Assembly (NCBI RefSeq): GCF_024448895.1
Contig: NZ_JAMOIC010000004.1
Coordinates: forward strand, 248,001 to 312,000
Source of the DNA: Stutzerimonas stutzeri
GTDB lineage: Bacteria > Pseudomonadota > Gammaproteobacteria > Pseudomonadales > Pseudomonadaceae
Reading direction: 5' to 3'
Length of the DNA: 64,000 nt
The notes under the pieces are model-generated. The model had not been told where the DNA came from. It worked only from the letters and a program-made list of their open reading frames with translations, and did not search any database. Of the stretch, positions 494 through 22,528 are shown one piece after another. How positions within the stretch are numbered: the stretch's first letter is position 1; each line of letters opens with the position of its first letter. A program made the position numbers and the translations under genes.

Positions 494-522
494 TTGACAG
501 TCGAGGAGCGCATCCCTAGAAT
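494..522 (+). promoter_or_regulatory. Predicted sigma-70 promoter of the yceD-rpmF-plsX-fab cluster
   Basis: A perfect TTGACA (494-499) and TAGAAT (517-522) are separated by 17 bases. Transcription should begin near 528-530, only a few bases before the yceD start codon at 532, leaving almost no 5' leader. No Shine-Dalgarno sequence lies between the -10 box and the ATG. Confidence 0.7.
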
Positions 523-531
523 GCCGCGCTT

Positions 532-1059: not shown

Positions 1060-1071
1060 GAGTTGATCCCA

Positions 1072-1254: not shown

Positions 1255-1257
1255 ATC

Positions 1258-2328: not shown

Positions 2329-2387
2329 AATTCGATGCGCCTCAAGGGCGTTTTCTTCCAGACGAACAACCATAAGAGAGCGGTTTC

Positions 2388-3326: not shown

Positions 3327-3340
3327 ACTAGGAGATATTT

Positions 3341-4084
3341 ATGAATCTGCAAGGCAAAGTCGCTCTGGTGACGGGTGCTAGCCGCGGTATTGGCCAGGCC
3401 ATTGCGCTTGAGCTTGGTCGGCAGGGTGCCATCGTGATTGGCACTGCGACTTCCTCTTCAGGCGCCGAGCGTATCGCTGAAACGTTAAAGGAAAATGGCA
3501 TCGAAGGTGCGGGTCTGGTGCTGGACGTCACAAGTGACGAGTCCGTAGCTACCACACTGGAGCATATTCAACAGCATCTCGGTCAGCCCGCCATCCTTGT
3601 CAATAATGCAGGCATCACCCGCGATAATCTGATGTTGCGGATGAAGGATGACGAATGGCATGACGTGATCAATACCAATCTCAGCAGCTTGTATCGGCTC
3701 ACCAAAGGCGTTTTGCGGGGGATGACGAAGGCCCGCTGGGGCAGAATTATCAGTATCGGTTCGGTGGTGGGTGCCATGGGCAACGCCGGGCAGGTAAACT
3801 ACGCCGCAGCCAAGGCCGGGCTTGAAGGTTTTAGCCGGGCATTGGCGCGTGAAGTCGGTTCGCGAGGCATTACGGTCAATGCGGTTGCACCTGGCTTCAT
3901 CGATACGGATATGACGCGTGAGCTGCCTGAAGCTCAGCGTGACGCATTGCTGGGGCAGATCCCTTTGGGGCGTCTCGGCCAAGCGGAAGAGATTGCCAAG
4001 GTTGTCGCTTTTCTGGCTTCGGACGGTGCTGCCTATGTCACGGGAGCAACGGTTCCGGTGAACGGCGGCATGTACATGAGCTAG
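3341..4084 (+). CDS. fabG: 3-oxoacyl-ACP reductase FabG
   Basis: This 247-residue short-chain dehydrogenase reduces 3-oxoacyl-ACP with NADPH in each fatty-acid elongation cycle. It shows the cofactor motif GASRGIG near residue 14, the NNAG motif, the GSVVGAMGNAGQ segment with the catalytic serine, the YAAAK active site (Tyr-x-x-x-Lys near 150-154), and the C-terminal GGMYMS typical of FabG. AGGAG at 3330-3334 precedes the ATG. It directly follows fabD and precedes acpP, the classical fab order, which separates it from the many other dehydrogenases of this fold. Confidence 0.97.
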   Translation: MNLQGKVALVTGASRGIGQAIALELGRQGAIVIGTATSSSGAERIAETLKENGIEGAGLVLDVTSDESVATTLEHIQQHLGQPAILVNNAGITRDNLMLRMKDDEWHDVINTNLSSLYRLTKGVLRGMTKARWGRIISIGSVVGAMGNAGQVNYAAAKAGLEGFSRALAREVGSRGITVNAVAPGFIDTDMTRELPEAQRDALLGQIPLGRLGQAEEIAKVVAFLASDGAAYVTGATVPVNGGMYMS

Positions 4085-4163
4085 CGTGACGCCAAGTCAT
4101 CATGCAGTAATGAAGGCTGGTCCGTTTCGTTATAAAACTGCGGTTTTGATATAGACAGATGGT

Positions 4164-4193
4164 TGAAAGCGGAGTCATGCTTGCCCGCTTTCA
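4164..4193. repeat. 9-bp perfect inverted repeat just upstream of the acpP -35 box
   Basis: TGAAAGCGG (4164-4172) and CCGCTTTCA (4185-4193) form a perfect inverted repeat with a 12-base gap that ends two bases before the predicted acpP -35 box. No T-tract follows, so it is a poor intrinsic terminator for fabG. It could be an operator, a weak transcript end for fabG, or chance. Confidence 0.5.
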
Positions 4194-4195
4194 GC

Positions 4196-4223
4196 TTGAA
4201 ATGCGGAAAACGCTTTCTATACA
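4196..4223 (+). promoter_or_regulatory. Predicted sigma-70 promoter of acpP
   Basis: TTGAAA (4196-4201) and TATACA (4218-4223) are separated by 16 bases. A start near 4230 gives a leader of roughly 44 bases before the acpP ATG. A dedicated strong promoter fits the very high demand for acyl carrier protein compared with the other fab genes. Confidence 0.75.
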
Positions 4224-4273
4224 CTACCGCGCAGACCAGCTGCCTGATTTTTCCATAGGAGTGAAAACAAGGT

Positions 4274-4510
4274 ATGAGCACCATCGAAGAACGCGTCAAG
4301 AAAATCGTTGCTGAGCAACTTGGCGTCAAAGAAGAGGAAGTCACCAACAGCGCTTCCTTCGTCGAAGACCTGGGTGCCGACTCCCTTGACACCGTTGAGC
4401 TGGTGATGGCTCTGGAAGAGGAATTCGAGACTGAAATCCCTGACGAGCAAGCTGAGAAGATCACCACTGTTCAAGAAGCAATCGATTACATCAACGCGCA
4501 CGCGCAGTAA
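4274..4510 (+). CDS. acpP: Acyl carrier protein AcpP
   Basis: This 78-residue acidic protein carries growing acyl chains on a 4'-phosphopantetheine arm. The attachment serine is Ser37 in GADSLD, and the flanking sequence from [19 protein letters not shown] is essentially invariant in the family. It sits between fabG and fabF, has its own predicted promoter upstream and a strong terminator downstream, and should be one of the most abundantly expressed genes in the window. Confidence 0.98.
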
Positions 4511-4535
4511 GTTGTAATCCTGCTTCGAACCAGTA

Positions 4536-4575
4536 AGCCGCACTGCTCCTAAACAGAGCAGTGCGGCTTTTGTTT
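4536..4575 (+). terminator. Intrinsic terminator after acpP
   Basis: AGCCGCACTGCTC (4536-4548) pairs perfectly with GAGCAGTGCGGCT (4556-4568) around a 7-base loop and is followed by a T-rich run. It probably ends most acpP transcripts and sets fabF expression apart. Confidence 0.88.
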
Positions 4576-4691
4576 GAGTTAGTTGTACCAGCTGGTCGTG
4601 CCGATTGGCCGATGTCTGTGAAGGCCCGGCTCGTTGTCCGTTGCGAATGCAAGCGGCGAAGAGTGTGGCGAATAATGCAAGGAGAATTGCT

Positions 4692-5936
4692 GTGTCGCGT
4701 AGACGCGTCGTAATCACCGGGATGGGCATGCTATCGCCGCTGGGTAACGATGTGCCAAGCAGCTGGCAGGGTATTCTCGCCGGCCGCAGTGGTATCGGCC
4801 TGATTGAGCACATGGATCTTTCCGCCTACTCCACTCGCTTTGGCGGATCAGTAAAGAATTTCGACGTTGAGCAGTATCTGCCAGCGAAAGAGGCGCGCAA
4901 GCTCGATCTCTTCATCCAGTACGGCCTGGCTGCCAGTTTCCAGGCGGTGCGTGATTCCGGACTGGAAATTACCGATGCCAATCGCGAGCGCATCGGCGTG
5001 GCCATGGGCTCCGGAATTGGCGGTCTGACCAATATTGAGAACAGCTGCAAGGCCCTCATCGAGCAGGGACCACGGCGCATCTCGCCGTTTTTCGTCCCCG
5101 GCTCGATCATCAATATGGTTTCGGGCTTTCTGTCGATCCATCTGGGGCTGCAAGGTCCAAACTACGCTATCGCTACAGCCTGTACGACTGGTACGCATTG
5201 CATCGGTATGGCCGCACGTAACATCGCTTACGGTGAAGCTGACGTCATGGTTGCAGGCGGTTCGGAAATGGCAGCAAGTGGTCTGGGAATCGGCGGCTTC
5301 GCCGCGGCCAGGGCGCTATCGACGCGCAACGATGATCCGGCTGCAGCAAGCCGGCCGTGGGACAAGGACCGGGACGGCTTCGTATTGTCCGATGGTGCTG
5401 GCGCACTGGTTCTTGAAGAGCTCGAGCATGCCAAGGCACGCGGTGCAAAAATTTATGCGGAGCTGATCGGTTTCGGCATGAGTGCAGATGCGTTTCATAT
5501 GACCTCGCCGCCGGACGATGGCGCAGGTGCCGCTCGTTGCATCCGAAACGCGATCGTGGATGCCGGCATAGATACCGCCCAGGTCCATTACATCAATGCT
5601 CACGGTACTTCGACACCGGCCGGTGACAAGGCTGAGGCGGCTGCGATCAGAACGGTGTTCGGCAGTCATGCTTATGATCTGTCGGTAAGCTCGACCAAAT
5701 CCATGGTGGGGCATCTGCTAGGTGCTGCAGGCGCAGTAGAGGCGATATTCAGTGTGCTCGCCATCCGCGATCAGGTGGCGCCGCCGACGATCAACCTCGA
5801 TGAGCCTGGTGAGGGCTGCGATCTCGACTTCGTACCGCATGTGGCAAAGCCCCGGACAATCGATGTCGCTGTCTCGAATTCATTTGGTTTCGGTGGTACC
5901 AATGGTTCGCTGGTATTCCGCCGGTTCACCGAGTGA
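4692..5936 (+). CDS. fabF: Beta-ketoacyl-ACP synthase II FabF
   Basis: This 414-residue condensing enzyme elongates acyl-ACP with malonyl-ACP. The catalytic triad is visible as Cys164 in TACTTG, His in HGTSTPAGD and His in GHLLGAAG, and the C-terminus [15 protein letters not shown] is typical. The GTG at 4692 is chosen because [12 protein letters not shown] matches the family N-terminus and AAGGAG lies at 4679-4684; the open frame extends upstream to 4605 without family-like sequence. It overlaps pabC by four bases. Confidence 0.96.
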
Positions 5937-6750
5937 CACTGAGCTGGGTGGACGGACAGCCCTCTGATGGGTTGTCTGTTCATGATCGAGGGCTCGCTTA
6001 CGGTGACGGCCTGTTTGAAACGATCAAGGTTGTAGACGGCCGTCCGGAACTACTAGATCGGCACCTCGACAGGTTGAAGCGAGGCTGCCGGACCCTGGCG
6101 ATTCCCTGCAATAGCGAAGCGCTACGCAGGCAGCTCACGGCTTTCAGCGTTGAGCTTGTCGACGGTGTGGCCAAGTTGATTGTCAGTCGCGGCGAGGGTA
6201 GACGGGGTTATGCCCAGCCCGACCCCGTTATTCCGCGAACCATCATTCTCGGGTCTCCCTTTCCAAACTATCCAGACGCTCACTCCACGCAGGGAGTGAA
6301 ACTTTACTCCTGCACGACTCGCCTTGCAGAGCAGCCACTTCTTGCCGGCCTCAAGCACCTCAATCGACTGGAACAGGTTCTCGCCCGTAGTGAATGGCAG
6401 GATCCCGCCTATGCCGAAGGATTGATGCGAGATATGTCCGGGCGCGTTATAGAAGGCGTCTTCAGCAACCTGTTTATTATCGAGTCTGGCAAGCTTTTGA
6501 CGCCTGCGCTTGATCGGTGCGGTGTCGCCGGAGTGATGCGAGAAGAGCTGCTGGAGAGGGCTGGCTTGATTGGAGTCGATACCCTGGTCACGGACATCAC
6601 GCTCGAACGCCTACTCGATGCTGACGAGGTGTTCATGTGCAACAGCTTGTATGGCGTTTGGCCTGTGCGGCAAATCGAGGCCTGTGTCTGGTCGGTGGGT
6701 CCGCTCACACGTAAACTTCAGCGTCTGGTAGCTGATCTGTCGAGCAACAC

Positions 6751-9938: not shown

Positions 9939-10724
9939 ATGCTGGTCGACTCGCATTGCCACCTGGATCGTCTCGATCTCTCCGCACATGATGGCTGTCT
10001 CGACAAAGCCCTTGATGCTGCGCGTGAGTGTGGCGTAGGGCATTTCCTCTGTATAGGCGTGAGCGCTGATAACACCGCGGCAGTCAAGGCACTCGCGCAG
10101 CGATACAAGGATGTTGACTGTTCAGTTGGCGTGCACCCGCTGGATCTCAAGCCTGGTACCGAACCTGCGCTGGACTGGCTGCTCGGTGAGCTGGAGGCGC
10201 CCGGCGTAGTTGCGATTGGCGAGACGGGGCTCGATTACCACTATGAACCCGAGGCCGCGGAACTGCAGCAGGAGTCCTTTCGGCTGCATCTGGAGGCGGC
10301 GCAGATCTGCGGCAAACCAGTGATCGTCCATACTCGTGCCGCGCGGTCGGACACGTTGGACCTGCTTCGTGAGGCGGCTTTGACTCAGGCCGGCGTGCTG
10401 CACTGCTTCACCGAAGACTGGGACATGGCCAAGGCGGCACTGGACCTGGGTTTTTACATCTCGCTATCCGGTATCGTCACGTTTCGCAATGCTGATGCAC
10501 TGCGGGATGTGGCGCGTCGCGTTCCGGCGGATCGTCTGCTGGTGGAAACGGACTCACCCTACTTGGCACCAATTCCCTATCGGGGCAAATCGAACCTGCC
10601 GCAATACGTACGCGAAGTGGCCGAGTTCCTGGCTGACTTGCGCGGTGTCGATTTCGAAACCTTGGCTTCACAGACCACTGCCAATTTTAAACGGCTGTTC
10701 CCGCTGGCCCGCATCGGTTTCTGA
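9939..10724 (+). CDS. tatD: TatD-family metal-dependent hydrolase
   Basis: This 261-residue TIM-barrel protein belongs to the TatD/YcfH group of metal-dependent nucleases and hydrolases. Metal ligands are visible in DSHCHLD at the N-terminus, GETGLDYH near residue 90, HTRAA and ETDSPYLAP. Family members act as 3'-5' DNases, and the copy beside holB/pilZ is generally called YcfH. The ATG at 9939 gives the usual MLVDSHCH start; an ATG three codons upstream at 9930 is an alternative. A short hairpin just after the stop could end the cluster transcript. Confidence 0.9.
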   Translation: MLVDSHCHLDRLDLSAHDGCLDKALDAARECGVGHFLCIGVSADNTAAVKALAQRYKDVDCSVGVHPLDLKPGTEPALDWLLGELEAPGVVAIGETGLDYHYEPEAAELQQESFRLHLEAAQICGKPVIVHTRAARSDTLDLLREAALTQAGVLHCFTEDWDMAKAALDLGFYISLSGIVTFRNADALRDVARRVPADRLLVETDSPYLAPIPYRGKSNLPQYVREVAEFLADLRGVDFETLASQTTANFKRLFPLARIGF

Positions 10725-10906
10725 TTGCGGCCAGCCGTCGCAGGCTGGTCATACGCAAGCCAGGAACTCGGCGGGCATGTACAATCCGCGCCGCTTCGAG
10801 ATGCCTTCCGAGACGTCGAGCATCGACGCAACGGGTGCATTCGAATCCATGCGTCGCGGCTCCTGTTTTCGGCGACCACTCGTCACAACCCAGACAAGGT
10901 GACGTC

Positions 10907-12298
10907 ATGTCCAGCGAGACGCTGCACACGGGACCGCTTCAGCGCGGTTTGAAGAATCGGCACATCCAACTGATCGCACTTGGTGGGGCCATCGGCACTG
11001 GCCTCTTCCTCGGTTCGGCAGGCGTGCTTCGCAGTGCCGGGCCTTCAATGATTCTCGGCTATGCCATTGGCGGCATGATTGCCTTTCTGATCATGCGGCA
11101 ACTGGGCGAGATGATCGTCGAAGAGCCGGTCGCCGGATCGTTCAGTCATTTTGCTCACAAGTACTGGACACCGTATGCGGGCTTCCTTTCTGGCTGGAAT
11201 TACTGGGTGCTTTACGTTCTGGTGGGAATGGCCGAGCTGACGGCGGTCGGCAAATACGTGCAGTTCTGGTGGCCAGAGGTGCCTACGTGGGTAACCGCTG
11301 CGGCGTTCTTCGTGCTGATCAATCTGATCAACCTGGTAAACGTCCGAACCTTTGGCGAAACGGAATTCTGGTTCGCCATCGTAAAAGTGGGTGCCATCGT
11401 CGGCATGATTGCGCTGGGCCTGTACTTGTTGCTGAGCGGCAGCGGAGGCGAGCAGGCCAGCTTCAGCAATCTCTGGAGCCACGGCGGGTTCTTTCCCAAC
11501 GGCATCAGCGGGATGGTCATGGCGCTGGCGATCATCATGTTTTCGTTCGGCGGACTCGAACTGGTCGGAATCACCGCGGCAGAGGCGTCGGACCCGAAAA
11601 CGGTCATCCCGAAAGCCATCAATCAGGTCGTTTACCGAATTCTGATCTTCTACATCGGTGCGCTGAGCGTACTGCTCGCGCTATATCCCTGGGACAGTTT
11701 GCTCGAGACCCTTGGTGCTGCGGGCGACCCCTACAGCGGCAGCCCCTTCGTGCAGATCTTTTCTCTGATAGGGAGTGACACTGCGGCGCACATCCTCAAT
11801 TTCGTGGTGCTCACCGCGGCGCTATCGGTCTACAACAGTGGCGTGTACTGCAATAGCCGCATGCTGTATGGCCTTGCGGAGCAGGGTGATGCGCCGAAGG
11901 TGTTCATGAGCGTGAACCGTCGCGGCGTTCCGGTATTGGCGATCGCGCTCTCTGCGCTGGTCACCATGCTTTGCGTGCTGGTCAATTATCTGCTGCCTCA
12001 AGGCGCGCTTGAGCTGCTGATGTCGCTGGTGGTTGCGGCGCTGCTGATCAACTGGGCGATGATCAGCCTGGCACATCTGAAATTCCGCAAGTCAATGCAA
12101 ATGCAAGGTATCGAGCCGTCGTTCAAAGCCTTCTGGTATCCATTCAGCAACTACCTGTGCCTAGCCTTCGTGGCTTTGATCGCTGTCATCATGTTGTCGA
12201 TGCCTGGACTGCGTACCTCCATCATTGCCATCCCTTTCTGGGCGCTGTTCATCTGGCTGTGCTTTAAGCTAAGGCAGTTCAGCAAGCGCACCACTTAA
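10907..12298 (+). CDS. aroP: Aromatic amino acid permease, AroP/PheP type
   Basis: This 463-residue protein of the amino acid-polyamine-organocation superfamily has about 12 hydrophobic segments. The N-terminal LKRGLKNRHIQLIALGG-like segment, GAIGTGLFLGS, the EEPVAGSFSHFA motif, SGWNYWVLYVLV and the SFGGLELVGITAAEA stretch closely resemble E. coli AroP, a proton-driven importer of phenylalanine, tyrosine and tryptophan. The ATG at 10907 with AAGGTGA upstream fits best; the frame is open further upstream. PheP-like or broader specificity cannot be excluded. It stands alone after tatD. Confidence 0.85.
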   Translation: MSSETLHTGPLQRGLKNRHIQLIALGGAIGTGLFLGSAGVLRSAGPSMILGYAIGGMIAFLIMRQLGEMIVEEPVAGSFSHFAHKYWTPYAGFLSGWNYWVLYVLVGMAELTAVGKYVQFWWPEVPTWVTAAAFFVLINLINLVNVRTFGETEFWFAIVKVGAIVGMIALGLYLLLSGSGGEQASFSNLWSHGGFFPNGISGMVMALAIIMFSFGGLELVGITAAEASDPKTVIPKAINQVVYRILIFYIGALSVLLALYPWDSLLETLGAAGDPYSGSPFVQIFSLIGSDTAAHILNFVVLTAALSVYNSGVYCNSRMLYGLAEQGDAPKVFMSVNRRGVPVLAIALSALVTMLCVLVNYLLPQGALELLMSLVVAALLINWAMISLAHLKFRKSMQMQGIEPSFKAFWYPFSNYLCLAFVALIAVIMLSMPGLRTSIIAIPFWALFIWLCFKLRQFSKRTT

Positions 12299-12327
12299 GG
12301 TTGAGACGCTAGGCCTGCGCACCAGGC

Positions 12328-12358
12328 AAAAAAAACCCGGCGTCTAAGGAAGCCGGGT
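12328..12358 (-). terminator. Intrinsic terminator, minus strand
   Basis: On the minus strand ACCCGGC and GCCGGGT (12352-12358 and 12335-12341) pair around a 10-base loop and are followed by eight T residues (12335-12328). The T-run is on the minus-strand side only, so this serves the putative sRNA or the aminotransferase transcript rather than aroP. Confidence 0.85.
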
Positions 12359-12436
12359 CAAGACCATTAGGAGTAATGAGGTCACGTTCCTCGCTTCCTC
12401 AGCTGGCCGGGCATTGGGGGGATTGCGCGGCCAGTG
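12328..12436 (-). ncRNA. rgsA: Putative small RNA, RgsA-like by position
   Basis: The 227-base gap between aroP and the aminotransferase gene has a strong minus-strand terminator at its left end and a CAATACT element (complement of 12442-12448) that differs by one base from the sigma-S -10 consensus CTATACT. A start near 12436 predicts an RNA of about 109 nt, rich in GGA and AGGAA segments. In P. aeruginosa, as I recall, the sigma-S-dependent sRNA RgsA lies between tatD and a TetR gene, the same neighbourhood as here. Identity rests on position and these elements, not on a sequence comparison. It could instead be the 3' UTR of the minus-strand enzyme gene. Confidence 0.5.
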
Positions 12437-12525
12437 ACTGAAGTATTGGCCGGGATGAGCAAGTCTGCCGGCCGATTCGCCGCTTTTTAAAACGGATTTG
12501 GAATAGTTGCACGCGCCTTGATCGC

Positions 12526-13659
12526 TCACTTTGCGCCAAGGCTGCGGACGATTGCCAATGACTGCTCGATCACCTCGTATTCGGTGTAGAAATGCGGCGA
12601 TAGCCTGATACCGCCGCCCCGCAGCGCACAGACAATCTGCTCGGCCTTAAGCCTTTGGAACAGCTCCGGGTTTTCCCAGCCATTGACTCTGAAGGTCATA
12701 ATCCCGGCCCGGCGGTGCGGATCGGTGGGGCTCAGAATCTCCACCCCTCGCATGCCTGACAGCTCACGCTGAAAATGATCGATGCGCTCGCTCAGTCCCT
12801 TGCCTACGGCGCTCATACCAATCTCTTCCAACAGCGAAAGGCTGGCGTCCAACGCCATGGCACCGAGCAGATTCGGGCTGCCGCATTCGAAACGGCGCGC
12901 ACTTGCCGCTGGCTGCCAGTCACTGCGGTCGTAGTCGCCCGCATGCTCGAGCATGTGCCAGCCGTATTCGTGTAGCCGCAGCTGCTCACGCAGGTCGCTG
13001 CGGCAATAGAAGACACCAAGTCCTTCCGGGCCGAGCATCCATTTGTGGCCGTCCGCCATAGCGAACGCGCAGTGGTAGTTCTGGACATCGAAGGGCAGCG
13101 CGCCGATCTGCTGGATGGCATCGATGCAGAAGAGTACGCCGTGTTGATCGCAGCCTTGGCCAAGTCGTGCCAGATCGAGCCGTAAACCGCTGGCGTACTG
13201 CACGGCGCTGACCGCCAACAAGCGAACTTTGGGTCCACAGGCCGCCAACAGTGCGCCCTCCGGATCATTGCCCTTGAGGCTGACTTGAATGATCTCGACT
13301 CCCTGCGGCTTCAACGCTTCCCACACCACGCGGTTGGAAGGGAATTCCTCGTCACTGATGACGATCTGGTCACCTGGCCTCCAATCCAGGCCGAAAGCCA
13401 CGAACGAGAGCGCTTCGGAGGTGTTCTTGACCAGCGCCACATCGGCGGTGCTTGGGGCGTTGAGCAATCTGACGAGGCGCTCGCGCAGCCTGTTCTCGAC
13501 TGTGAGCCATTGCGGGTAGTCGCGTGCACCAATAGTCATGTTCTGCTGAGCGAACGCAATCACGGCCTCAGTTGCGCGGCGCGGCCATGGGGCAACAGAG
13601 GCGTGATTCAGGTATCGCAAGCCTTCGATTTGGGGAAATTCGTCACTCAATGTACTCAT
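12526..13659 (-). CDS. Aminotransferase class V-fold PLP-dependent enzyme
   Basis: This 377-residue protein has the fold of class V aminotransferases and cysteine desulfurases. YLNHASVAPWPRR at the N-terminus, KNTSEALSFVAFGL, the SDEEFPSN segment, the PLP-aspartate region FCIDAIQQIGALPFD and ADGHKWMLGPEGLGVFYC with the Schiff-base lysine are visible. There is no cysteine in the desulfurase active-site position that I can recognise, so it is unlikely to be a sulfur donor; substrate is unknown. The start at 13659 (MSTLSDEF) is preferred to an ATG six codons upstream because GGAA lies at a suitable distance. It is divergent from a TetR gene. Confidence 0.85.
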   Translation of the reverse strand: MSTLSDEFPQIEGLRYLNHASVAPWPRRATEAVIAFAQQNMTIGARDYPQWLTVENRLRERLVRLLNAPSTADVALVKNTSEALSFVAFGLDWRPGDQIVISDEEFPSNRVVWEALKPQGVEIIQVSLKGNDPEGALLAACGPKVRLLAVSAVQYASGLRLDLARLGQGCDQHGVLFCIDAIQQIGALPFDVQNYHCAFAMADGHKWMLGPEGLGVFYCRSDLREQLRLHEYGWHMLEHAGDYDRSDWQPAASARRFECGSPNLLGAMALDASLSLLEEIGMSAVGKGLSERIDHFQRELSGMRGVEILSPTDPHRRAGIMTFRVNGWENPELFQRLKAEQIVCALRGGGIRLSPHFYTEYEVIEQSLAIVRSLGAK

Positions 13660-13730
13660 GGGCGATGTTCCGTGCATTTTCTGACTAAATAGGCATAATC
13701 TTCTGCTTCGATTTCAACCCGCAGCCTCTT

Positions 13731-14351
13731 ATGCAAAATGAATCCCGTAAGGTCCGCGAATTTCGCCGTCGCGAACAAGAGATTCTCGATACGGCGCTCC
13801 AGTTATTCCTTGATCAGGGGGAAGACAGCGTCACCGTCGAGATGATCGCCGACAAGGTGGGAATCGGCAAAGGCACCATTTACAAGCACTTCAAATCAAA
13901 GGCCGAGATCTATCTCCGCTTGATGCTTGATTACGAGCGCGACCTGAATGAGCTCTTGCACTCACCCAGCCTGGATCAGGACAAGGAAGCGCTGTCCCGT
14001 GCTTACTTCGAATTCCGCATGGGTGACCCTCAGCGCTATCGCCTGTTCGACCGTCTCGAGGAGAAGGTCGTGAAGGGAAATCAAGTGCCGGAAATGGTCG
14101 AAGAGCTTCACCGCATCCGCGCGTCGAACTTCGAACACCTGACTCAGCTGATCAAGGGGCGCATCGCGGAAGGCAAACTCGAAGACGTACCACCTTATTT
14201 CCACTATTGCGCAGCCTGGGCGTTGGTGCACGGCGCTGTCGCGCTGTATCACTCGCCATTCTGGAGCAACGTCCTGGAAGATCAGGAAGGCTTCTTCCAG
14301 TTCCTGATGGACATCGGCGTACGGATGGGCAACAAGCGCAAGCGAGACTGA
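13731..14351 (+). CDS. TetR family transcriptional regulator
   Basis: This 206-residue protein has a typical TetR N-terminal DNA-binding domain: ILDTALQLFLDQGEDSVTV near residues 18-36 and helix-turn-helix VGIGKGTIYKHFKSKAEIY at about 44-62. The C-terminal ligand domain is not recognisable. Only 71 bases separate it from the divergent aminotransferase-fold gene, so one operator could serve both. A close relative seems to sit in the same place in P. aeruginosa (PA2957, from memory), suggesting a conserved regulator; its ligand cannot be read from the sequence. Confidence 0.93.
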   Translation: MQNESRKVREFRRREQEILDTALQLFLDQGEDSVTVEMIADKVGIGKGTIYKHFKSKAEIYLRLMLDYERDLNELLHSPSLDQDKEALSRAYFEFRMGDPQRYRLFDRLEEKVVKGNQVPEMVEELHRIRASNFEHLTQLIKGRIAEGKLEDVPPYFHYCAAWALVHGAVALYHSPFWSNVLEDQEGFFQFLMDIGVRMGNKRKRD

Positions 14352-14420
14352 TCCAGGTGGGGTGAGGCTGGGCATTTTGTCGCCATGTGCTTCGGAAAAC
14401 AGATGCGGCCGCGCTAAGGG

Positions 14421-15509
14421 TCAGATGCCCGTTGAGCAAAAGGGCTGACGTTTGGACCACAACTGTGCGTCGGGCAGCGATTCTCCAGGGTTCAGTAACG
14501 GAAGCCTCACAACCAGCTCAGTTCCTTTGCCGCTTCCCTCACTCTTGCCGGTCACCGTGCCACCGTGTGCCTCGACCAACTCGCGCACCACCGTGAGACC
14601 GATGCCCAGCCCTGCGCCGTCGAAACCAACCGCATTCACATCCTGTACGAATGGCTCGAAGATGAACGGTAGCGCTTTTGCTGTGATCCCGATGCCGTTG
14701 TCGCGAATGCTGATCTCCACTATGTCCCCTTCGGCAGTAGCCAATAGGCTGACCGAGCCACCGACCGGTGTGTACTTGGCGGCGTTACCTAACAGGTTTC
14801 CGAGAATCTGAGCGAGCCGCATGGGGTCACCGTTTATTGCCAGTACACCCTCAGGCAGTAATGTGCTCAAGTGTATGTCGCGCGCGATCATTGCCGGACT
14901 GCAGAGCTCCACAGCTTCTTGGATGGTCTCTACCATATCGACAACGCGACATTTGAGTCGGAACTTGCCGGTGCTGGCGCGCGCCAAGTCGAGCAGATCT
15001 TCTACCAGACGAGACATGTGGCGTACCTGCCCCTCGATCAAGGCCTGCATGCGCGGCAGCTCCTCACTTGGCGTACGCCCCAGACGCCCAGCAATCAGGC
15101 TGATAGGTGTCAGGGGATTGCGTAGTTCGTGAGCTACCAACGCGAGCACTTTTCTTTGCTGCTCCAGCGCGAATTCGGCCGAGGCTTGCAGGTCTTTTGC
15201 GCTCAAGGCGGCGGTAACCAATTGTTCGTTGGCTTCACGCATATCCAGACTTAGCTGCTGCTCTGCTTGTGTGAGCTGCGATCTCTCTGCATCCGACTGA
15301 GCTAGCAATGTCGCCAGAACCAATTGCTGGTTGGCCTCGATCAGTTGCTCCATCTGCTGACTGTCGACGAGCTGGGCGTTGGTGTCGTTCAGTTCTTTAT
15401 GCAATGCCGCCAGCACCGCGCGCGCCTCAACGGTTTGCTGTCCGAGCCGGAACAGTTCCTCGGAGGCGGTAGCCCTTGCTTGCGCGTTGTCGGCATTGAT
15501 CCTTTTCAC
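14421..15509 (-). CDS. Soluble histidine kinase without sensor domain, downstream of a KaiC-like ATPase
   Basis: This 362-residue protein has no membrane segment and no PAS, GAF or receiver domain. Residues 1-120 are a long Gln/Glu/Ala-rich predicted coiled coil. The H-box LALVAHELRNPLTPI holds the phospho-accepting His127; the N-box is GNAAKY near 241, G1 is DNGIGI at 270-275 and G2 GLGIGL at about 300-305, so the kinase core is complete. The start is a GTG at 15509 with GAGGAG inside the end of the upstream gene, 10 bases away. No response regulator is nearby; input probably comes from the ATPase encoded just upstream. Confidence 0.9.
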   Translation of the reverse strand: MKRINADNAQARATASEELFRLGQQTVEARAVLAALHKELNDTNAQLVDSQQMEQLIEANQQLVLATLLAQSDAERSQLTQAEQQLSLDMREANEQLVTAALSAKDLQASAEFALEQQRKVLALVAHELRNPLTPISLIAGRLGRTPSEELPRMQALIEGQVRHMSRLVEDLLDLARASTGKFRLKCRVVDMVETIQEAVELCSPAMIARDIHLSTLLPEGVLAINGDPMRLAQILGNLLGNAAKYTPVGGSVSLLATAEGDIVEISIRDNGIGITAKALPFIFEPFVQDVNAVGFDGAGLGIGLTVVRELVEAHGGTVTGKSEGSGKGTELVVRLPLLNPGESLPDAQLWSKRQPFCSTGI

Positions 15510-15519
15510 GAGTTTGTGT

Positions 15520-16981
15520 TCACTCCTCGTCCCCGCTTGGACGCCGTCGGGTAGGCCGGCCTCCGAGCAGACCTTCTTGATCCGACAGCATCTCTCCGAT
15601 CAGTAGTCCGTTATCGTCAATGCGATACAGGCGCAACTCATCCGAATGGCTGCTGGCGCGCACCTTGACCACCGCCATGATGCGCAACAAGCGGCTCTCC
15701 ACCTCGATATAGCACTGGACGATAATGGCGTCGGTGAGGAACGCCGTACCGTAAGGGCTGAATCGCAAGTCCGTGTAGCGATCTTCCAGCTCCGAAGTCA
15801 TCAGCACACTCACCCCAACAGAGGTCAGTGCGGTAACCATCCTTGAAAGCGATTCCCGATAGTCTTCGCGGAAGGTAGGTGCCAGCGCCAGTTCGAAGCC
15901 CGATAGTGAATCGATCACCACGCGGGTCGCCTTCAATCTGTCGATTTCGCTTAACAGCTGAGAAACGATTTCATCGATGGATAGGTCCGGGGCACGACTG
16001 TCGACCAAACCGACTTGGTCGTTCTTGATCAAATCGGCAAGGGTGGCATTTTGCGAGCGATTGGGTCGTTGTTCGAATACGGCGATGACCCCGGTTTCGC
16101 CATTGCGAACACCCTCTGCGAGGAAAGATGCAGCCAGAATGCTTTTACCAGAACCCGATGGCCCGGCCACGAGCAGTGAGTAGCCCCGAGGGAGGCCGCC
16201 GCCCAGCATATCGTCGAGCCGCGGTACGCCCATATTCAGGCGCTTCATAGGGAAGGTTCGCGGTGCCTCGACGGTACTGGACGCCGCGGGTGCAAATACC
16301 TTGATTCCTGAGCTGGCGATTCGGAAAGTGTGCAAACCAGGCAATGTCGGCTGGCCACGCATCTTCATGATTTCCATCTTGCGAACCATGGAATTGCGCT
16401 GAACGCTCTGGCGCAGCCAGATCAGCCCATCGGCCACGGTGAAAATCGGGTTGGTATCGGTTTCGGTGAAGTACTCACCAATCAGAAATGTCGTTGCCTG
16501 CCAAGTGGTCATCAGCATGCCGAGTTGCTGAACGAACTGCGGCAGATTGTTGTTCGGGTTGTTCTGGGTCTGGCTTGCCAGCACTACCGAACGGAACGAA
16601 TCGACGAACACCAGCGCGGGCGAATGACTTTCGACTTCGCTGACGATACGCCGCAGCACTTCGTCCAGGTCTCCGGCCAGGGTGTCGTCAGCCAGATTGA
16701 TGTAGCGGATCGACTGGTTGATCGCTTCGCTGTCGAAGAACTCGAACTGCTGTTGATAGCGCAGCATTTTCAGCGGTGGCTCGCCTAGCATCGTAAAAAA
16801 AAGTGCGGGGCGTTCGGGTGTTGCCAAGGCGAACATCATCTGATGTGCCAGGGTGGTTTTGCCACAACCTGGGGGGCCGGCGATCAGGTTGAACGAGAAC
16901 TCCGGCAACCCTCCGCCGAGCACTTCGTCCAACCCCGGCACACCGGTGGCCAGACGGTTTATAGTCGCTTTGGGTGCTCAT
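15520..16981 (-). CDS. Double-domain KaiC/RAD55-like ATPase, apparent frameshift near its start
   Basis: Two RecA-like domains are visible. Numbering from the GTG at 16941, Walker A motifs are GPPGCGKTT (22-30) and GPSGSGKSI (260-268), with Walker B-like LVFVDSF (110-116) and VVIDSLSGFEL in the second. TLPGLHTFRIASSGIKVF links the domains as in KaiC-family proteins. The natural start seems to be the ATG at 16981, overlapping the upstream stop as ATGA, but its frame leaves the KaiC frame: one extra base within AAACC (complement of 16956-16960) separates MSTQSDYK from RLATGVPGLDEVLGGG. Without it the protein would be about 486 residues. As written, only a GTG start at 16941 without Shine-Dalgarno is possible. 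No kaiA or kaiB is nearby. Confidence 0.85.
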
Positions 16982-17412
16982 GGCGATTTTTCCTGCGCAG
17001 GGGTTTCGCTCGAAATGGGTTTCCACACACCGCGAAGCAAGCGGGTGGTGAGCGAGGAACCAATAAGCGTGGTCAGCAGTTTGTGGAATGTAACTAGCAA
17101 CACTTCACCAAAAAACAGAGCTTCGGCTACGCTTTGCTCAACGAGCAGGGCCTGCAGAGCTGTCAGATCCAGAGAAGCCTGCAACTCGGCATATACGCTG
17201 GTGAGGTGCGGGTGGTTGGATAGGCAGAGGTGAAGGCTACGGCGATACAGCGCGGCAACGCCTTGCGGCCCGAGGATGGGCGCCAGTGCTGAGTCTATGT
17301 CCTGCAGTATGGATATGATCGTCTGTGCGACCGCTGCGGTGTTAGCGTCAGGGCCAACGCGACGCGTTAGAGAAGCTACGATCTCATTGCTCTCTTCGCT
17401 TGGCGTGGACAT
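16978..17412 (-). CDS. Unrecognised 144-residue protein heading the KaiC-like/kinase operon
   Basis: I do not recognise this family. The protein starts MSTPSEESNEIV, is rich in Leu and Ala with predicted helices (QTIISILQDIDSALAPILG, LTALQALLVEQSVAEALFFG), and ends in a Lys/Pro/Ser tail. A segment LLVTFHKLLTTLIGS is moderately hydrophobic but too weak for a confident membrane span. The ATG at 17412 is preferred to one 19 codons upstream because the extra N-terminus looks non-coding. Its stop overlaps the presumed start of the KaiC-like gene (ATGA), which argues that it is real and co-translated. A role as sensor, adaptor or regulator of the ATPase is only inference. Confidence 0.75.
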   Translation of the reverse strand: MSTPSEESNEIVASLTRRVGPDANTAAVAQTIISILQDIDSALAPILGPQGVAALYRRSLHLCLSNHPHLTSVYAELQASLDLTALQALLVEQSVAEALFFGEVLLVTFHKLLTTLIGSSLTTRLLRGVWKPISSETPAQEKSP

Positions 17413-17814
17413 GGCTCGCTCATACCTGATGGGGACTATGTTGATAGTACACCCTAAGAAAAAAAGCACAGACTTAACTGCCCCTCACGGTAGCTTCGTA
17501 TCTATTTCAGACAACATCGGTAGATAAAACGTCGCCAACATGGATGCGCTTCGCCGTTAGGCTCGTCGAATAAACCCGTCTATCCCGGCTCGGGTACATC
17601 AACTTTGCTGCTGGTGCTTTGGCGCCGCCTGTTTATTCGAATACCGTCGCGCCAATCGGACGCATGGGCGTGAGCTACGGTTTGCTTCGGAGGACAACGT
17701 ATCGAGCTGATGACACCGGCTTTCCCACACGATGGAAAACGGTACCGTCAGAACTGGCGTGTTTGCTGCATTGCTACGTCAATCGTCGGTTTTCCGTCAC
17801 GCCAGGAGCGAGAG
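17413..17814. other. Intergenic region between the KaiC-like operon and a lipoprotein gene
   Basis: This 402-base stretch separates divergent genes and should hold promoters for both, but I find no pair of boxes convincing enough to name. It contains a 10-bp inverted repeat at 17566-17640 and an A-run at 17458-17465. An open frame into 17710-17814 upstream of the lipoprotein start has no family-like sequence. No tRNA or recognisable RNA is present. Confidence 0.5.
17566..17640. repeat. 10-bp perfect inverted repeat with 55-base spacer
   Basis: TCGAATAAAC (17566-17575) and GTTTATTCGA (17631-17640) are exact reverse complements. Inside, CCCG and CGGG segments could form a second small stem. 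It lies in the upstream region shared by two divergent units. No flanking target duplication is evident, so a miniature transposon is not supported. Confidence 0.6.
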
Positions 17815-18417
17815 ATGAAAGTGTTTAGCCTTATCGTAGCCGCGCTCGTATTAAGCGGCTGCATGAAGGTAAGCGATATGGCCGAGGGTACACGCCATCA
17901 ACTTCGCGACGTCGGCATACTCGACCACAGCGAGACCGTGCGCTCGGCTTCGTGGCGCTTGCAGCCCGACTCCTTCATCTATATCGCACAGGGGCACTTC
18001 GTCCCGCCGGGGGATGCCTACCCGCGACCAAACGTTGTCGCAGAAGAAGCCTTCAAGGGGTTTGTCGAGTATTTCCCGCTGGTACGGCGCGCTCCTGATC
18101 CGGCCGGATTGGACGAGGCATTGAACCAGGCGGCGGTTGCTGGTGCCCATTACTTGCTGTACACCCGTTTTGCCGCTGCGGATGACCGCATAGGCAGTTT
18201 CGATGAACTCAATGATCAACGCGCGCTCGATCGCCTCGGTGTGGACACCAGCGTGGTGCAGCTGATGTTGTTCGAGACCGGGACTCGCTACCTGGTCGAC
18301 ACGGCACGAATCCGTAGCCGAGGCGGGCTGTGGAACATCTATGACGCAACGCCGCAACTCCTGTTGGGGCCGCCGTTGCGAGACTACGCCAGGCGCCTGA
18401 CGGGCCTGAGTCGCTAA
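17815..18417 (+). CDS. Conserved lipoprotein, DUF4823-like
   Basis: This 200-residue protein begins MKVFSLIVAALVLSGCMKVS, a clear lipoprotein signal with lipobox LSGC, so the mature protein starts at Cys17. The residue after it is Met, not Asp, suggesting outer-membrane targeting by Lol sorting. The rest (YIAQGHFVPPGD, AHYLLYTRFAAADDRIGS) resembles the Pseudomonas family of unknown function DUF4823, named from memory. AGGAG at 17804-17808 supports the start at 17815. It is nine bases upstream of a DUF1285 gene and likely co-transcribed with it. Confidence 0.8.
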   Translation: MKVFSLIVAALVLSGCMKVSDMAEGTRHQLRDVGILDHSETVRSASWRLQPDSFIYIAQGHFVPPGDAYPRPNVVAEEAFKGFVEYFPLVRRAPDPAGLDEALNQAAVAGAHYLLYTRFAAADDRIGSFDELNDQRALDRLGVDTSVVQLMLFETGTRYLVDTARIRSRGGLWNIYDATPQLLLGPPLRDYARRLTGLSR

Positions 18418-18426
18418 GGAGCACAC

Positions 18427-18993
18427 ATGAGTGATGCTGGAAAAGCCGAGAATCTGCTCGGCCAGATTCCACAAGAAAAAAATAAGGGCCTGCCACCTGT
18501 TCACCTCTGGAACCCGCCGTTCTGCGGCGATATCGACATGCGGATTGCGCGCGATGGCAGCTGGTTCTATCAAGGTACGCCCATAGGTCGTCCCGCCATG
18601 GTGCGGCTTTTTTCTACCGTGATTCGGCGAGACGGTGACGATTACTTTCTGGTGACGCCGGTTGAGAAGGTCGGCATCACTGTCGATGACGCGCCTTTCG
18701 TGGCGGTTGAGCTGATTGCCGAGGGCAGCGGCGAGGCTCAGGTTCTTCGCTTCGTCACCAATGTTGGTGATGAAACCGAAGCAGGTGAAGAGCATCCGAT
18801 GCGGGTCGAAATCGATCCCGAGACTCAGGAACCGGCGCCTTACGTACATGTTCGCGCCAACCTGGAGGCGCTGATCCATCGCAACGTCTTCTATCAGTTG
18901 GTTGAGCTGGCGGAGCCGCGCGAGATAGATGGCGCCAAGTGGCTGGGGGTATGGAGCCACGGTCATTTCTTTCCGATCGGCCGCGCCGAGTAA
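18427..18993 (+). CDS. DUF1285 domain protein
   Basis: This 188-residue cytoplasmic protein matches DUF1285 in its [18 protein letters not shown] start, the [13 protein letters not shown] motif and the [23 protein letters not shown] stretch. Structures exist for the family but no biochemical role is established. The gene follows the lipoprotein with a nine-base gap and AAGGAG before the ATG. The same pair appears together in other pseudomonads, as far as I recall. Confidence 0.88.
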
Positions 18994-19094
18994 TCTTCCA
19001 GCAGCGCTTACCCGGGCATTTAGCTAGCGCCTCTGGCCGCAGAGGTTAGAACCTCTGATTGGAGCGTCGGCTGCGGGTTAGTGGGCGAGGGAGC

Positions 19095-19466
19095 TCAATC
19101 CGTGCGCCAGACGATCTCCTCTTCGCCGCGCTCGCTGATGCTTATCCAACGATCAGCGTCTTCTACCGATTCTTCTTCCTGCCAGCCACCCGGTGCGCAG
19201 CGGATCTCGACTCCGAGTACCTGATGAGCGGCGCGGGCACAGGCGATGTCGTCATCCCAGGGTGTTGAATCGCTCTCGAGCAAAAGGCTGTGCCATTTCC
19301 CGACCGCCTTTGGCAACCATGTCACCGGAACCTCGCCGGCCCTGCATTTGAACGTCTTGCCCTTGGGCTCCCAAGGTGAACAGGCGCCCAGGGCCTGGGT
19401 CAGCCATTCGGTGACAGCCTCATGGCTGGCATCCCTGAGATAGATTTCGATGTCCGGTTGACGCAT
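19095..19466 (-). CDS. Conserved hypothetical protein, 123 residues
   Basis: I do not recognise a named domain. The protein is acidic and Trp-rich, beginning MRQPDIEIYLRDASHEAV, with the central FKCRAGEVPVTWLPKAVGKW and a C-terminal RWISISERGEEEIVW. It has no signal peptide or membrane segment. The codon pattern and the complete frame support a real gene. It lies 104 bases downstream of rlmA on the same strand and could be the last gene of the dapE-rlmA transcript. Confidence 0.75.
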   Translation of the reverse strand: MRQPDIEIYLRDASHEAVTEWLTQALGACSPWEPKGKTFKCRAGEVPVTWLPKAVGKWHSLLLESDSTPWDDDIACARAAHQVLGVEIRCAPGGWQEEESVEDADRWISISERGEEEIVWRTD

Positions 19467-19570
19467 GAGCGGTGGCCTTGTCGGGTAGTAGATGGCGTGA
19501 AGTGATCAGGAACCCATCGTGGAAGGGTGCCAGTGCTGTCGTGTGCATCGCATGCTTCAGAAGCTGGGTT

Positions 19571-20377
19571 TTACCTGTCTCTCTCGATCCAGTCGTAGCG
19601 TATCGCAACCCGCACCCGCAGTGGCGCGTTGACGACCGCCGTGCGGCGCTCTGCGCTCGCACGCCAGCCATGCGGCGTCATGGCCAGCAGATCGGCGCGA
19701 GCTTGGGCACTGTCCAGCTGCAATTCGAAAGATAAGGTCTCGCTATGGGCCAGATGCATGCCGTCCGGGATCAGGGTCAGGTGTTTCTCGTCATCGTATT
19801 CGCGGATCTCGTCGTACAGCAGGCCGCGCAGTTCCCAGAGGTGTTCGCGGGTCGGGCCCATGCGCAGCAGTCCGCCGCCGGGTGCGAGCAGGCGCCGGGC
19901 TTCATCCCAGTCCAAAGGGCTGAAAACACTCGCGAGCAGTTCGCAGCTGGCGTCGGCCATTGGCACGCGAGCCATGCTCGCAACCAACCATTCGACCTGC
20001 GGCGCACGTTTGCAGGCGCGTTTTACCGCTTCGCGGGAGATATCCAGCGCGTAGCCGTCCGCTTCCGGGAGTGCCTGGCCAATCTGTGCCGTGTAATAGC
20101 CTTCGCCACAGCCGATATCCAGCCAGCGTTTCGGAGCGCGCTCGGCTGCCAGCTGCGCCAGGCGCATAGCTAATGGAGCGTAGTGGCCGCCATCGAGAAA
20201 CCGCCGCCGTGCTTCAACCATGGCCTGGTTGTCGCCTGGGTCACGGCTATTCTTGTGCTGCACGGGAAGCAGATTGAGATAGCCCTGACGTGCCCGATCG
20301 AAACGATGGTTGGCAGGGCATGTCACGCCGTTGTCGAGGGCGATAAGTTCGCCCCGGCAGATTGGGCAGATCAGCAT
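19571..20377 (-). CDS. rlmA: 23S rRNA (guanine-N1)-methyltransferase RlmA
   Basis: This 268-residue protein has an N-terminal zinc finger (CPICRGEL...[18 protein letters not shown]) that binds rRNA and a SAM methyltransferase domain with motif [12 protein letters not shown] near residue 88. This layout is that of RlmA, which methylates N1 of G745 in helix 35 of 23S rRNA. The [17 protein letters not shown] segment is also typical. Its start overlaps the dapE stop by seven bases, so the two are translationally coupled. Confidence 0.93.
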
Positions 20378-21519
20378 GCGAGGAGGTTGACCAGGGTCTG
20401 GTAGTAGATCTCGGTCAGTAGATCGAGATCGCTGGCAAGGATATGTTCGTCCACTTGGTGGATCGTCGCGTTGACTGGCCCCAGCTCGACGACCTGGGTA
20501 CCGAGGGTCGCGATAAAGCGACCATCGGATGTGCCGCCGCTGGTGGATGGCGTGGTTTCGCGGCCGGTCACGCTGCGGATCGCTCTGGCCACGCCGTCGA
20601 GCAGGTCACCTGGTTCGGTCAGGAAGGGGAGGCCTGATAGTGCCCAGTCGACGCTCCAATCCAGGCCGTGCTTATCGAGTATCGCGGCGGTGCGTTGCTG
20701 CAGGCCTTCGACGGTGGATTCGGTCGAGAAACGGAAGTTGAACACCGCCTCCAGCGTCCCGGGAATGACATTCGTGGCCCCAGTGCCGGCGTTCAGGTTG
20801 GAAATCTGGAAGCTGGTCGGCGGGAAGAACGCGTTGCCATCATCCCAGTGTTCGGCAGCCAGCTCGGCCAATGCAGGTGCAGCCAGATGGATCGGATTGT
20901 TGGCCAGATGCGGGTAGGCCACGTGACCCTGTTTTCCGCGCACAGTCAACGTGCCCCCCAGTGAGCCGCGTCGACCATTCTTGACCACATCGCCGACCAG
21001 CTTGGTGCTCGATGGCTCACCGACGATGCACCAGTCCAGTCGCTGAGCGCGCTGGCGAAGGCGTTCGACAACCGCCTTGGTACCATGATGCGCCGGACCT
21101 TCCTCATCGCTGGTGATCAAAAAGGCAATCTGCCCCTTGTGACTCGGGTATTCGGCAGTGAAGCGCTCCACCGCGACGATCATCGATGCCAGGCTGCCTT
21201 TCATGTCTGCCGCGCCACGCCCGTGAAGCATTCCCTGTTCGTCGATGCGTGCAGCAAACGGTGGGTTCTGCCAGGCCTGCAGAGGGCCGGTCGGGACGAC
21301 ATCAGTGTGTCCAGCAAAGCACAATACGGGACCCTCGTTCCCGCGGATCGCCCAGAAATTCTCCACGTCTTCGATACGCATCGGCTCGATGGCGAACCCG
21401 CATGCGGCAAGGCGTTCGCTCATCAGCCCCTGGCAGCCTTCGTCCAGCGGTGTGACCGAGGGCCGATTGATCAGTTCGCAAGCGAGTTCGAGGGTCGGGG
21501 AGAGGGCGGCGGCGGTCAT
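20371..21519 (-). CDS. dapE: Succinyl-diaminopimelate desuccinylase DapE
   Basis: This 382-residue di-zinc M20-family enzyme converts N-succinyl-L,L-diaminopimelate to L,L-diaminopimelate in lysine and peptidoglycan precursor synthesis. Metal-site motifs are [21 protein letters not shown] and [12 protein letters not shown], and the NARFNFRF-type segment appears as FNFRFS. The C-terminal [11 protein letters not shown] is diagnostic of DapE. The ATG at 21519 is preferred to an adjacent GTG at 21522 because GGAG is better placed. Its partners dapD and dapC are nearby in this window. Confidence 0.96.
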
Positions 21520-21721
21520 CACGGCTCCGGGGCGGGCGGGGAAAGGGCGCCATATTAAAGCAAAACCCGGTTACTGCCGCGGGTCGAGTGGTGGCGCCAG
21601 CTTCACGTGTGCCGGCTTTGGTGGCGTATGCCATAGGCCGGCCGGCCGGTGGCAGAGCGCAGGCTCTGTTTTGGGGAGCATGAGCGCCTATAATTGCCCG
21701 TCGTTCTTCTTGGGTATCAGC

Positions 21722-22528
21722 ATGTCTTTCGACGATCAGCGCTTCGGCGGTATCGCACGCCTATACGGCAACCCCGGTCTCGAGCGCCTGGCCGCGGCGC
21801 ATGTTGCAGTGGTCGGCATTGGTGGCGTCGGTTCCTGGGCCGCCGAGGCGCTGGCGCGCAGTGGTGTCGGTGAGATCAGCCTGTACGACCTGGACGACGT
21901 TTGCATCACCAATACCAATCGGCAGGTTCATGCTTTGGAAGGCGCGGTAGGTAAACCGAAAGTCGACGAGATGGCTGCGCGGATCAAGGCGATCAACCCG
22001 CAGTGCGTGGTGCATGCAGTGGCCGACTTCGTGACTCGCGAAACCATGGCCGAGTACATCACCGAACAGATGGACTGTGTGATCGACTGCATCGACAGCG
22101 TGCCGGCCAAGGCGGCGCTCATCGCCTGGTGCAAGCGTCGCAAGATTCAGATCATCGCCACGGGCGGCGCGGGAGGGCAGGTGGACCCGACGCAGATTCA
22201 AGTTGCCGATCTGAACAAGACCTTCAACGACCCGCTGGCTGCAAAGGTGCGCTCGCTGCTGCGGCGTGAGTACAACTTCTCGCGTACGCCGGGTCGCACC
22301 TACAGCGTGCCCTGCGTATTCTCCACCGAGCAACTGCGTTATCCCAAGCCGGACGGTGGCGTCTGCCAGAGCAAGAGTTTCGTTGGTGAGGGCGTGAAGC
22401 TCGACTGCGCGGGCGGGTTCGGTGCGGCGATGATGGTCACGGCCAGTTTTGGTCTGGTGGCTGCGGCCCGTGCAGTGGACAAACTGGTTGCGGGGGCACG
22501 ACGTCCGGCGGAGCGTGTTCGGTCCTGA
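21722..22528 (+). CDS. tcdA: tRNA threonylcarbamoyladenosine dehydratase TcdA (CsdL)
   Basis: This 268-residue E1/ThiF-like enzyme cyclises t6A37 of tRNAs to ct6A using ATP. The nucleotide motif GIGGVGSWAAEALARSG, the LDDVCITNTNRQ segment and CIDSVPAKAALI are characteristic, and KPDGGVCQSKSFVGEGVKLDC near the C-terminus is specific to TcdA. The ATG at 21722 begins MSFDDQRFGGIARLYG. It faces csdE-csdA, which in E. coli supply sulfur and work with it; here the two units converge with only nine bases between them. Confidence 0.95.
   Translation: MSFDDQRFGGIARLYGNPGLERLAAAHVAVVGIGGVGSWAAEALARSGVGEISLYDLDDVCITNTNRQVHALEGAVGKPKVDEMAARIKAINPQCVVHAVADFVTRETMAEYITEQMDCVIDCIDSVPAKAALIAWCKRRKIQIIATGGAGGQVDPTQIQVADLNKTFNDPLAAKVRSLLRREYNFSRTPGRTYSVPCVFSTEQLRYPKPDGGVCQSKSFVGEGVKLDCAGGFGAAMMVTASFGLVAAARAVDKLVAGARRPAERVRS

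Follow-up and report, generated by a model that had tools for sequence, protein, structure and literature searches.

A KaiC-like double ATPase encoded with a small, predicted helical protein and a coiled-coil histidine kinase in Stutzerimonas stutzeri: a probable ATP-driven switch

How can the state of a KaiC-like ATPase be passed to an output kinase when neither KaiA nor KaiB is encoded with it? This question is raised by an operon of Stutzerimonas stutzeri, which is located in a 64-kb stretch (the window) covering positions 248001-312000 of the analysed contig of a 5.39-Mb genome in 78 contigs. The operon consists of three minus-strand genes at 14421-17412 of the window, which encode a 144-residue protein, a KaiC-like double ATPase and a histidine kinase. 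The original prediction, which was made from the nucleotide sequence alone, held that the state of the ATPase is read out directly by the coiled-coil kinase. The comparisons described below indicate that the operon is a conserved module. It probably encodes an ATP-driven switch of the KaiC family, which we infer to be read by the coiled-coil protein and to have the small protein as its dedicated partner. The features of the locus are as follows, in positions of the window.

16978..17412, minus strand: gene for the small protein, 144 residues plus stop; all-helical model, no known family.
16978..16981, minus strand: ATGA overlap of the small gene and the ATPase gene; ATPase start in 77/80 named relatives, with the ATG out of frame here.
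15520..16977, minus strand: KaiC-like double ATPase, open frame of 485 codons plus stop; the first ordinary in-frame start is GTG 16941.
16855..16878, minus strand: Walker A motif of the first ATPase domain (GPPGCGKT); Lys and Thr invariant in 85/85.
16141..16164, minus strand: Walker A motif of the second ATPase domain (GPSGSGKS); invariant in 85/85.
15739..15744, minus strand: codons of Ala412-Phe413, aligned with the KaiC phosphorylation pair; Ala in 84/85 and Phe in 84/85.
14421..15509, minus strand: coiled-coil histidine kinase, 362 residues plus stop.
15159..15506, minus strand: coiled-coil region of the kinase, residues 2-117, long helices; homologous to both flanks of the GGDEF domain in other species.
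14970..15158, minus strand: HisKA phosphoacceptor domain (Pfam), residues 118-180.
14496..14831, minus strand: HATPase_c domain (Pfam), residues 227-338.
17443..17454, minus strand: 12-base box GGGTGTACTATC, which precedes the operon and is retained in roughly half of the relatives.
14350..17751, no strand: stretch absent from the relative G055, which has a radical-SAM gene between the same flanks.

The original prediction is correct as to the three minus-strand genes, the 10-base gap between the ATPase and kinase genes, the two RecA-type domains of the ATPase, the 144-residue protein that could not be placed, and the kinase with a coiled coil as its sole non-catalytic part. It overlooked the disruption of the ATPase frame in the window, the GGDEF forms of the third gene in other species and the loss of the KaiC phosphorylation sites.

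The relatives named in this study are found by similarity to the ATPase and represent the best 80 of 238 confirmed stretches, all at least 76% identical in the best segment. This set is redundant, with some genomes included twice, near-copies and many close Pseudomonas, and relatives of low identity are little sampled. In agreement with the original prediction, the ATPase does not usually occur without its partners in these loci. The small gene adjoins it in 80/80 (E up to 0.001; in two pieces in L078), and the third gene is readable in 74/80. When 398 genomes drawn evenly from the phylum are searched, the small-protein profile and the ATPase (E 1e-70) are each detected in four genomes, and these are the same four, with the two genes adjacent each time; the best 10 candidate places for the small protein and the best 4 for the ATPase are scored per genome, so that misses are possible. 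Within the genus, the small protein is present in 6/56 genomes. The ATPase is present in 18/298 genomes of a sample of the family, and its matches in the same genus are the same six genomes. The operon is a conserved module, and it is a mobile unit that is present in several groups of proteobacteria.

The ATPase contains two PF06745 domains in one chain (6.2e-63, two stretches). In an alignment of 85 ATPases (the 80 named relatives, the window, two genus relatives and two plasmid copies, near-copies included), the Walker A lysine, the Walker B aspartate and one glutamate of each domain are invariant in 85/85. This result suggests that ATP turnover is likely kept. The columns aligned with the KaiC phosphorylation pair, which we take to be numbered S431/T432 (the column position comes from the alignments), contain Ala and Phe, each in 84/85 rows and together as an Ala-Phe pair in at least 83/85. 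This result suggests that autophosphorylation of the KaiC type at this pair is likely not kept. The ATPase does not reach the cut-offs of the circadian KaiC equivalogs NF006799 and TIGR02655, with scores of 216.7 against 408 and 135.6 against 546.25. Two further KaiC operons are present in the same genome (L019, G000:C1:288576-290298, and L020, G000:C4:41995-45103). In both of them, as in the window, the ATPase gene is tied to a two-component gene, in these cases by an overlap; this gene encodes a single receiver in one and a hybrid kinase-receiver in the other. They differ from the window ATPase at the phosphorylation positions, which are S-A and S-Y instead of A-F. Unlike them, the window operon holds the only match of the genome to the small-protein profile (10 of 54 candidate places scored).

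The small protein of the window matches no Pfam or NCBIfam family, and none of 58 members of its family matches any Pfam family at E 0.01, including PF07688 and PF07689 for KaiA and KaiB. The AlphaFold2 model of the protein is all-helical, with a predicted local distance difference test score (pLDDT) of 86.3 and a predicted template modelling score (pTM) of 0.80. Nothing stands out in fold searches with this model, which give weak matches to helical bundles, including a comparison with the fold of the KaiA C-terminal domain. An internal repeat, plausible by eye at approximately residues 35-57 and 105-127, is dropped, with a probability of 0.89% in a profile comparison. The distances between small proteins correlate with those between ATPases (r 0.91, 57 rows), as expected for genes travelling together, and the small protein evolves approximately 2.5 times faster.

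The third gene keeps its coiled coil and varies in what lies behind it. The window kinase consists of HisKA, HATPase_c and otherwise long helices alone; no Pfam domain is detected before residue 118 and no GGDEF domain anywhere in it. Its model, which is less certain than that of the small protein (pLDDT 76.6, pTM 0.55), has two long helices (residues 2-145) that run into the catalytic domains, and neither a sensor fold nor a KaiB-like N-terminal domain of the SasA type is predicted in it. The 74 readable third genes comprise 55 that encode a coiled coil with a histidine kinase and 19 that encode a GGDEF domain, in 17 of these together with a complete kinase; at three loci (L026, L090 and L101) the gene runs off the contig end. 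HisKA and HATPase_c are both present in 56/56 kinase-only forms, the window included, and 18 and 17 of the 19 GGDEF forms contain HisKA and HATPase_c respectively. Residues 5-93 of the window kinase match residues 5-94 of the N-terminal coil of the GGDEF protein L092 (39.6% identity), and residues 88-345 correspond to 285-542 in its kinase part (56.2% identity). These collinear matches indicate that the two coil segments are separated by a GGDEF block in one form but not in the other. The N-terminal coil of the window is matched by 18/19 GGDEF proteins, with L087 as the exception, and a similar (E)ANxQLVxAxLxAQ motif is found in the consensus lines of both coil segments. RxxD, presumably the motif of an inhibitory site, is present at the corresponding position in 20/20 GGDEF rows; these rows were chosen by their GGDEF motif, so that the RxxD count alone is independent.

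In a tree of the ATPases, the GGDEF form is scattered among the early branches, and most kinase-only proteins fall into one group of Pseudomonas and Stutzerimonas. This distribution suggests that the GGDEF domain was lost in the Pseudomonas/Stutzerimonas group and, in a separate event, in Luteibacter (L103). This tree was built quickly, with support from the Shimodaira-Hasegawa-like approximate likelihood ratio test alone; 34 of its 82 inner branches are open, the outgroup branch L017 is very long, and the branch that unites 59 rows without GGDEF has a support of 90 and is not starred. Other outputs are also detected. The third gene encodes GGDEF alone in L098 and a kinase fused to a receiver in G348. 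A Paracoccus plasmid encodes the small protein, the ATPase and an HWE-family kinase without a recognised sensor domain, with an adjoining receiver-like gene.

KaiA and KaiB are not found in a search of the whole genome, and both control searches find those of S. elongatus. A response regulator is also not found in the 64-kb window; the PF00072 matches of the contig, at 23280, 41995, 117025, 319269 and 321968, are all outside it, and the genome as a whole contains approximately 100 receiver domains. Both absences had been stated in the original prediction and hold in these searches. The unit shares with the cyanobacterial KaiABC-SasA clock a double-domain KaiC ATPase with both Walker A motifs and a histidine kinase as the likely reader. 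It differs from this clock in that KaiA, KaiB and the phosphorylation pair are missing and that the N-terminus of the kinase is modelled as long helices instead of a KaiB-like fold. KaiC-like ATPases have been described as signal transduction hubs in archaea, where, as here, ATPases of this family are wired to diverse signalling outputs. The unit of the window differs from these hubs in being proteobacterial and in having a single dedicated small partner and a single family of coiled-coil outputs.

A further comparison is with a Ramlibacter genome paper of 2011, whose authors we take to be De Luca et al. The part of this paper that was available (PMC3164672) describes three kaiC contexts, including one in which a specific kinase follows KaiC and kaiB is missing. 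Although KaiA and KaiB are indeed absent here, such a lack is thus not unusual. One group of kaiC genes in that paper lies near kinases, GGDEF proteins or receivers and has poorly conserved phosphorylation sites such as AF. The paper argues that a cycle is probably not sustained by KaiC homologues in which two residues cannot be phosphorylated, and suggests an hourglass or damped oscillator for the Ramlibacter KaiC and histidine kinase. The window unit resembles these contexts in the lack of kaiA and kaiB, in the histidine kinase next to kaiC or GGDEF or receiver genes nearby, and in the AF type of the third group. It differs in that neither a conserved small upstream protein nor a family that keeps its coil with a variable GGDEF domain is described in the available part. 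The operon example given there, Rta_04330/04340, is also unlike the window unit; it has phosphorylatable residues, and the N-terminus of its kinase is compared with SasA and KaiB. Terrettaz et al. (2023), as cited in PMC11832031, reportedly studied KaiC homologues of environmental Pseudomonas in relation to stress and biofilm, and the present unit likewise includes KaiC homologues of environmental Pseudomonas. These reports indicate that the general kind of system is already known. The small partner and the gain or loss of GGDEF within a coiled-coil family are not described in the literature searched, with figures and subscription papers outside the search.

These observations are consistent with a self-contained cytoplasmic signalling unit, which would work as follows. 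The KaiC-like ATPase, probably a hexamer as judged from its family, would cycle with ATP binding and hydrolysis and change its shape. With the KaiC phosphorylation pair lost, the state of the ATPase would most likely lie in its conformation and nucleotide occupancy and not in Ser/Thr phosphorylation. The small helical protein would be made by translational coupling just before the ATPase and would bind to it as a dedicated partner, which may serve as an input, a brake or an adaptor; this role is supported most strongly by its constancy beside the ATPase. Either by itself or together with the small protein, the ATPase would then act on the coiled coil of the third protein, and the signal would run in this direction. 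The coil would set the activity behind it, which is a histidine kinase here, with its response regulator presumably encoded elsewhere, and a diguanylate cyclase together with a kinase in other species. The coil is favoured as the coupling part because it is kept while the catalytic part varies. The direct readout of the original prediction is thus favoured in this respect, though contact between the proteins would still be a presumption. The stimulus and the physiological output in this model are likewise presumed.

Several observations weigh against a switch of this kind. The 80 loci are picked by ATPase similarity and hence are not independent, and the broad sample contains four positives. 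In one of these four (G261; L131, G261:C6), no kinase lies behind the ATPase and the small gene is readable in its C-terminal half only, with the ATPase open; this copy is possibly a remnant. The third gene is broken or missing in 3/80 loci where no contig end is the cause (L074, L075 and L093), and the kinase is cut short in the genus relative G033 (L023). In the plasmid pSBC2-3 of Caballeronia sp. SBC2 (L016), the ATPase is split into two frames and no such third gene is read behind it. For the Paracoccus plasmid, the receiver match is under the Pfam cut-off (23.8 against 30.2 bits) and the small protein matches weakly (E 0.0006). Tight operons can also hold proteins that do not touch. Finally, the start of the ATPase is disrupted in the window copy itself.

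This disruption arises as follows. The stop codon of the small gene overlaps an ATG as ATGA, and this ATG opens the ATPase frame in 77/80 named relatives but not in the window. The 4-base overlap of the original prediction is therefore present, but here its ATG lies in another frame than the ATPase. A one-base difference in length from the relatives, within the first codons after the ATG, shifts the ATPase frame of the window, so that this frame begins directly after the stop of the small gene, in the small gene's own frame, with a single TGA between the two. GTG 16941, the first ordinary start, falls inside the conserved N-terminus, and its use would drop the residues INRLATG. It is possible, though on balance doubtful, that the operon is decaying in this strain, such that the frame change abolishes the ATPase and what is left is the remnant of a module that works elsewhere. 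The displaced ATG and the loss of conserved residues from a GTG start would fit this explanation. However, the rest of the ATPase frame is open, and it differs from that of the nearest relative, G023, by 71 synonymous and 15 replacement codons, with 388 codons identical. The small number of replacement differences indicates that the gene has been under constraint until recently. Moreover, a one-base assembly error is possible in an assembly of 78 contigs, and a non-standard start codon or read-through of the stop may be an alternative, as both genes lie in one frame, one TGA apart.

There are three further explanations. The ATPase and the small protein might form the functional pair, as an ATP-dependent machine for remodelling or assembly, with the kinase as an upstream regulator or a passenger. 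These two proteins are indeed the most constant (80/80, and the same 4/398), and the third gene varies in type, is absent beside the G261 pair and is broken or missing at the three loci named above. We consider this explanation unlikely, as a readable third gene is retained in 74/80 loci, the coil is common to the kinase-only forms and 18/19 GGDEF forms, and the Paracoccus kinase, of another family, is yet encoded directly behind the ATPase. A timing device, such as the hourglass or damped oscillator suggested for Ramlibacter, would fit a protein of the KaiC family with both ATP sites kept and a kinase adjoining, and timing based on an ATPase needs no phosphorylation site in principle. It is nevertheless very unlikely, with KaiA and KaiB not found, the pair A-F in at least 83/85 ATPases, scores far under both circadian cut-offs, and the argument in the available part of PMC3164672 that such homologues would probably sustain no cycle. 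A circadian role in particular is rejected on the lost phosphorylation sites, the missing KaiA and KaiB and the low equivalog scores. An anti-phage defence or conflict system would account for the patchy distribution and for an ATPase with a small partner, but it is extremely unlikely here; the PADLOC matches are confined to short stretches of the P-loop or HATPase type (best 43 bits, residues 28-85), on which this reading is rejected, and the outputs are of the kinase and c-di-GMP (cyclic di-GMP) type.

The genomic setting agrees with the claim in the original prediction that the operon is an accessory module in a core region. The flanking TetR gene (assigned by eye) is present in 56/56 genus genomes, as compared with 6/56 for the small protein. 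The operon is absent from 4/6 genomes inspected (G055, G053, G032 and G027), in which approximately 950 bases separate the flanks, as compared with 3.4 kb. G055 and the window are homologous up to 14349 and again from 17752, and the interval in G055 and G053 reads as one closely similar protein, which is radical-SAM by Pfam in G055 (G055:C12:472663-473620, L150). The shared flanks with a different interval indicate that the operon stands in place of another gene. G033 carries the operon elsewhere on its chromosome. Inspection by eye of the open frames at 10000-22000, without a family search, reveals no mobile element around the window operon. The copies of Caballeronia and Paracoccus are on plasmids near insertion sequences, and L016 is a second copy of the small gene and the ATPase, among transposition genes.

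The 43 loci chosen for diversity do not widely share any gene outside the trio. Every cluster of frames found in at least 9 of them overlaps the trio at each of its loci or with a single exception; overlapping frames are merged in these clusters, and some members of the largest ones lie outside the trio. The commonest outside cluster is a Crp-type regulator in 8 loci, directly upstream of the operon in L076, L078, L080 and L081 and further away or downstream in L075, L089, L099 and L104; that of L080 (6148-7455) contains cNMP_binding and HTH_Crp_2. A GH94 glucan enzyme lies near the operon in 6/43 of these loci, which belong to different families, upstream in L075, L078, L080 and L081 and downstream in L095 and L097. 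The L080 copy (5-6655) is a 2216-residue protein with GH94 and glucoamylase domains, which we take to be of the cyclic glucan synthase type; a link to osmotic stress is possible.

The 12-base box GGGTGTACYATC precedes the operon by about 30-40 bases. In 47/80 loci, a relaxed form of it is found within 250 bases upstream, exactly at -40 in 30 of them; this form is also found in 1/1522 control windows. The genome contains the exact box once, at the operon, and a reversed control likewise once, and 0.26 chance matches are expected in the window with one mismatch allowed. The case for the box is made by its repeated position, and it is likely a promoter or operator.

The role of KaiC relatives outside cyanobacteria is largely open, and this unit offers a small, fixed set of parts: an ATPase without the KaiC phosphorylation sites, a dedicated partner, and a coiled-coil reader with an output that differs between related species. 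It allows the transfer of nucleotide state from an ATPase of the RecA/KaiC type to a kinase or cyclase to be tested, for which naturally occurring proteins that have or lack GGDEF provide ready-made pairs for comparison. We suggest, tentatively and with somewhat less confidence than the switch itself, that the unit represents a new class of KaiC-family switch, with no KaiA, KaiB or phosphorylation cycle, an obligate helical partner not described before, and one conserved coiled coil that is wired to a histidine kinase, a diguanylate cyclase or both as interchangeable outputs, of which Pseudomonas appears to have lost the cyclase. If this is true, Pseudomonas would have rewired the output from c-di-GMP and phosphorelay to phosphorelay only, by loss of the cyclase domain. 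If it is right, proteins of the KaiC family would be tied to the control of lifestyle by c-di-GMP in soil and plant bacteria.

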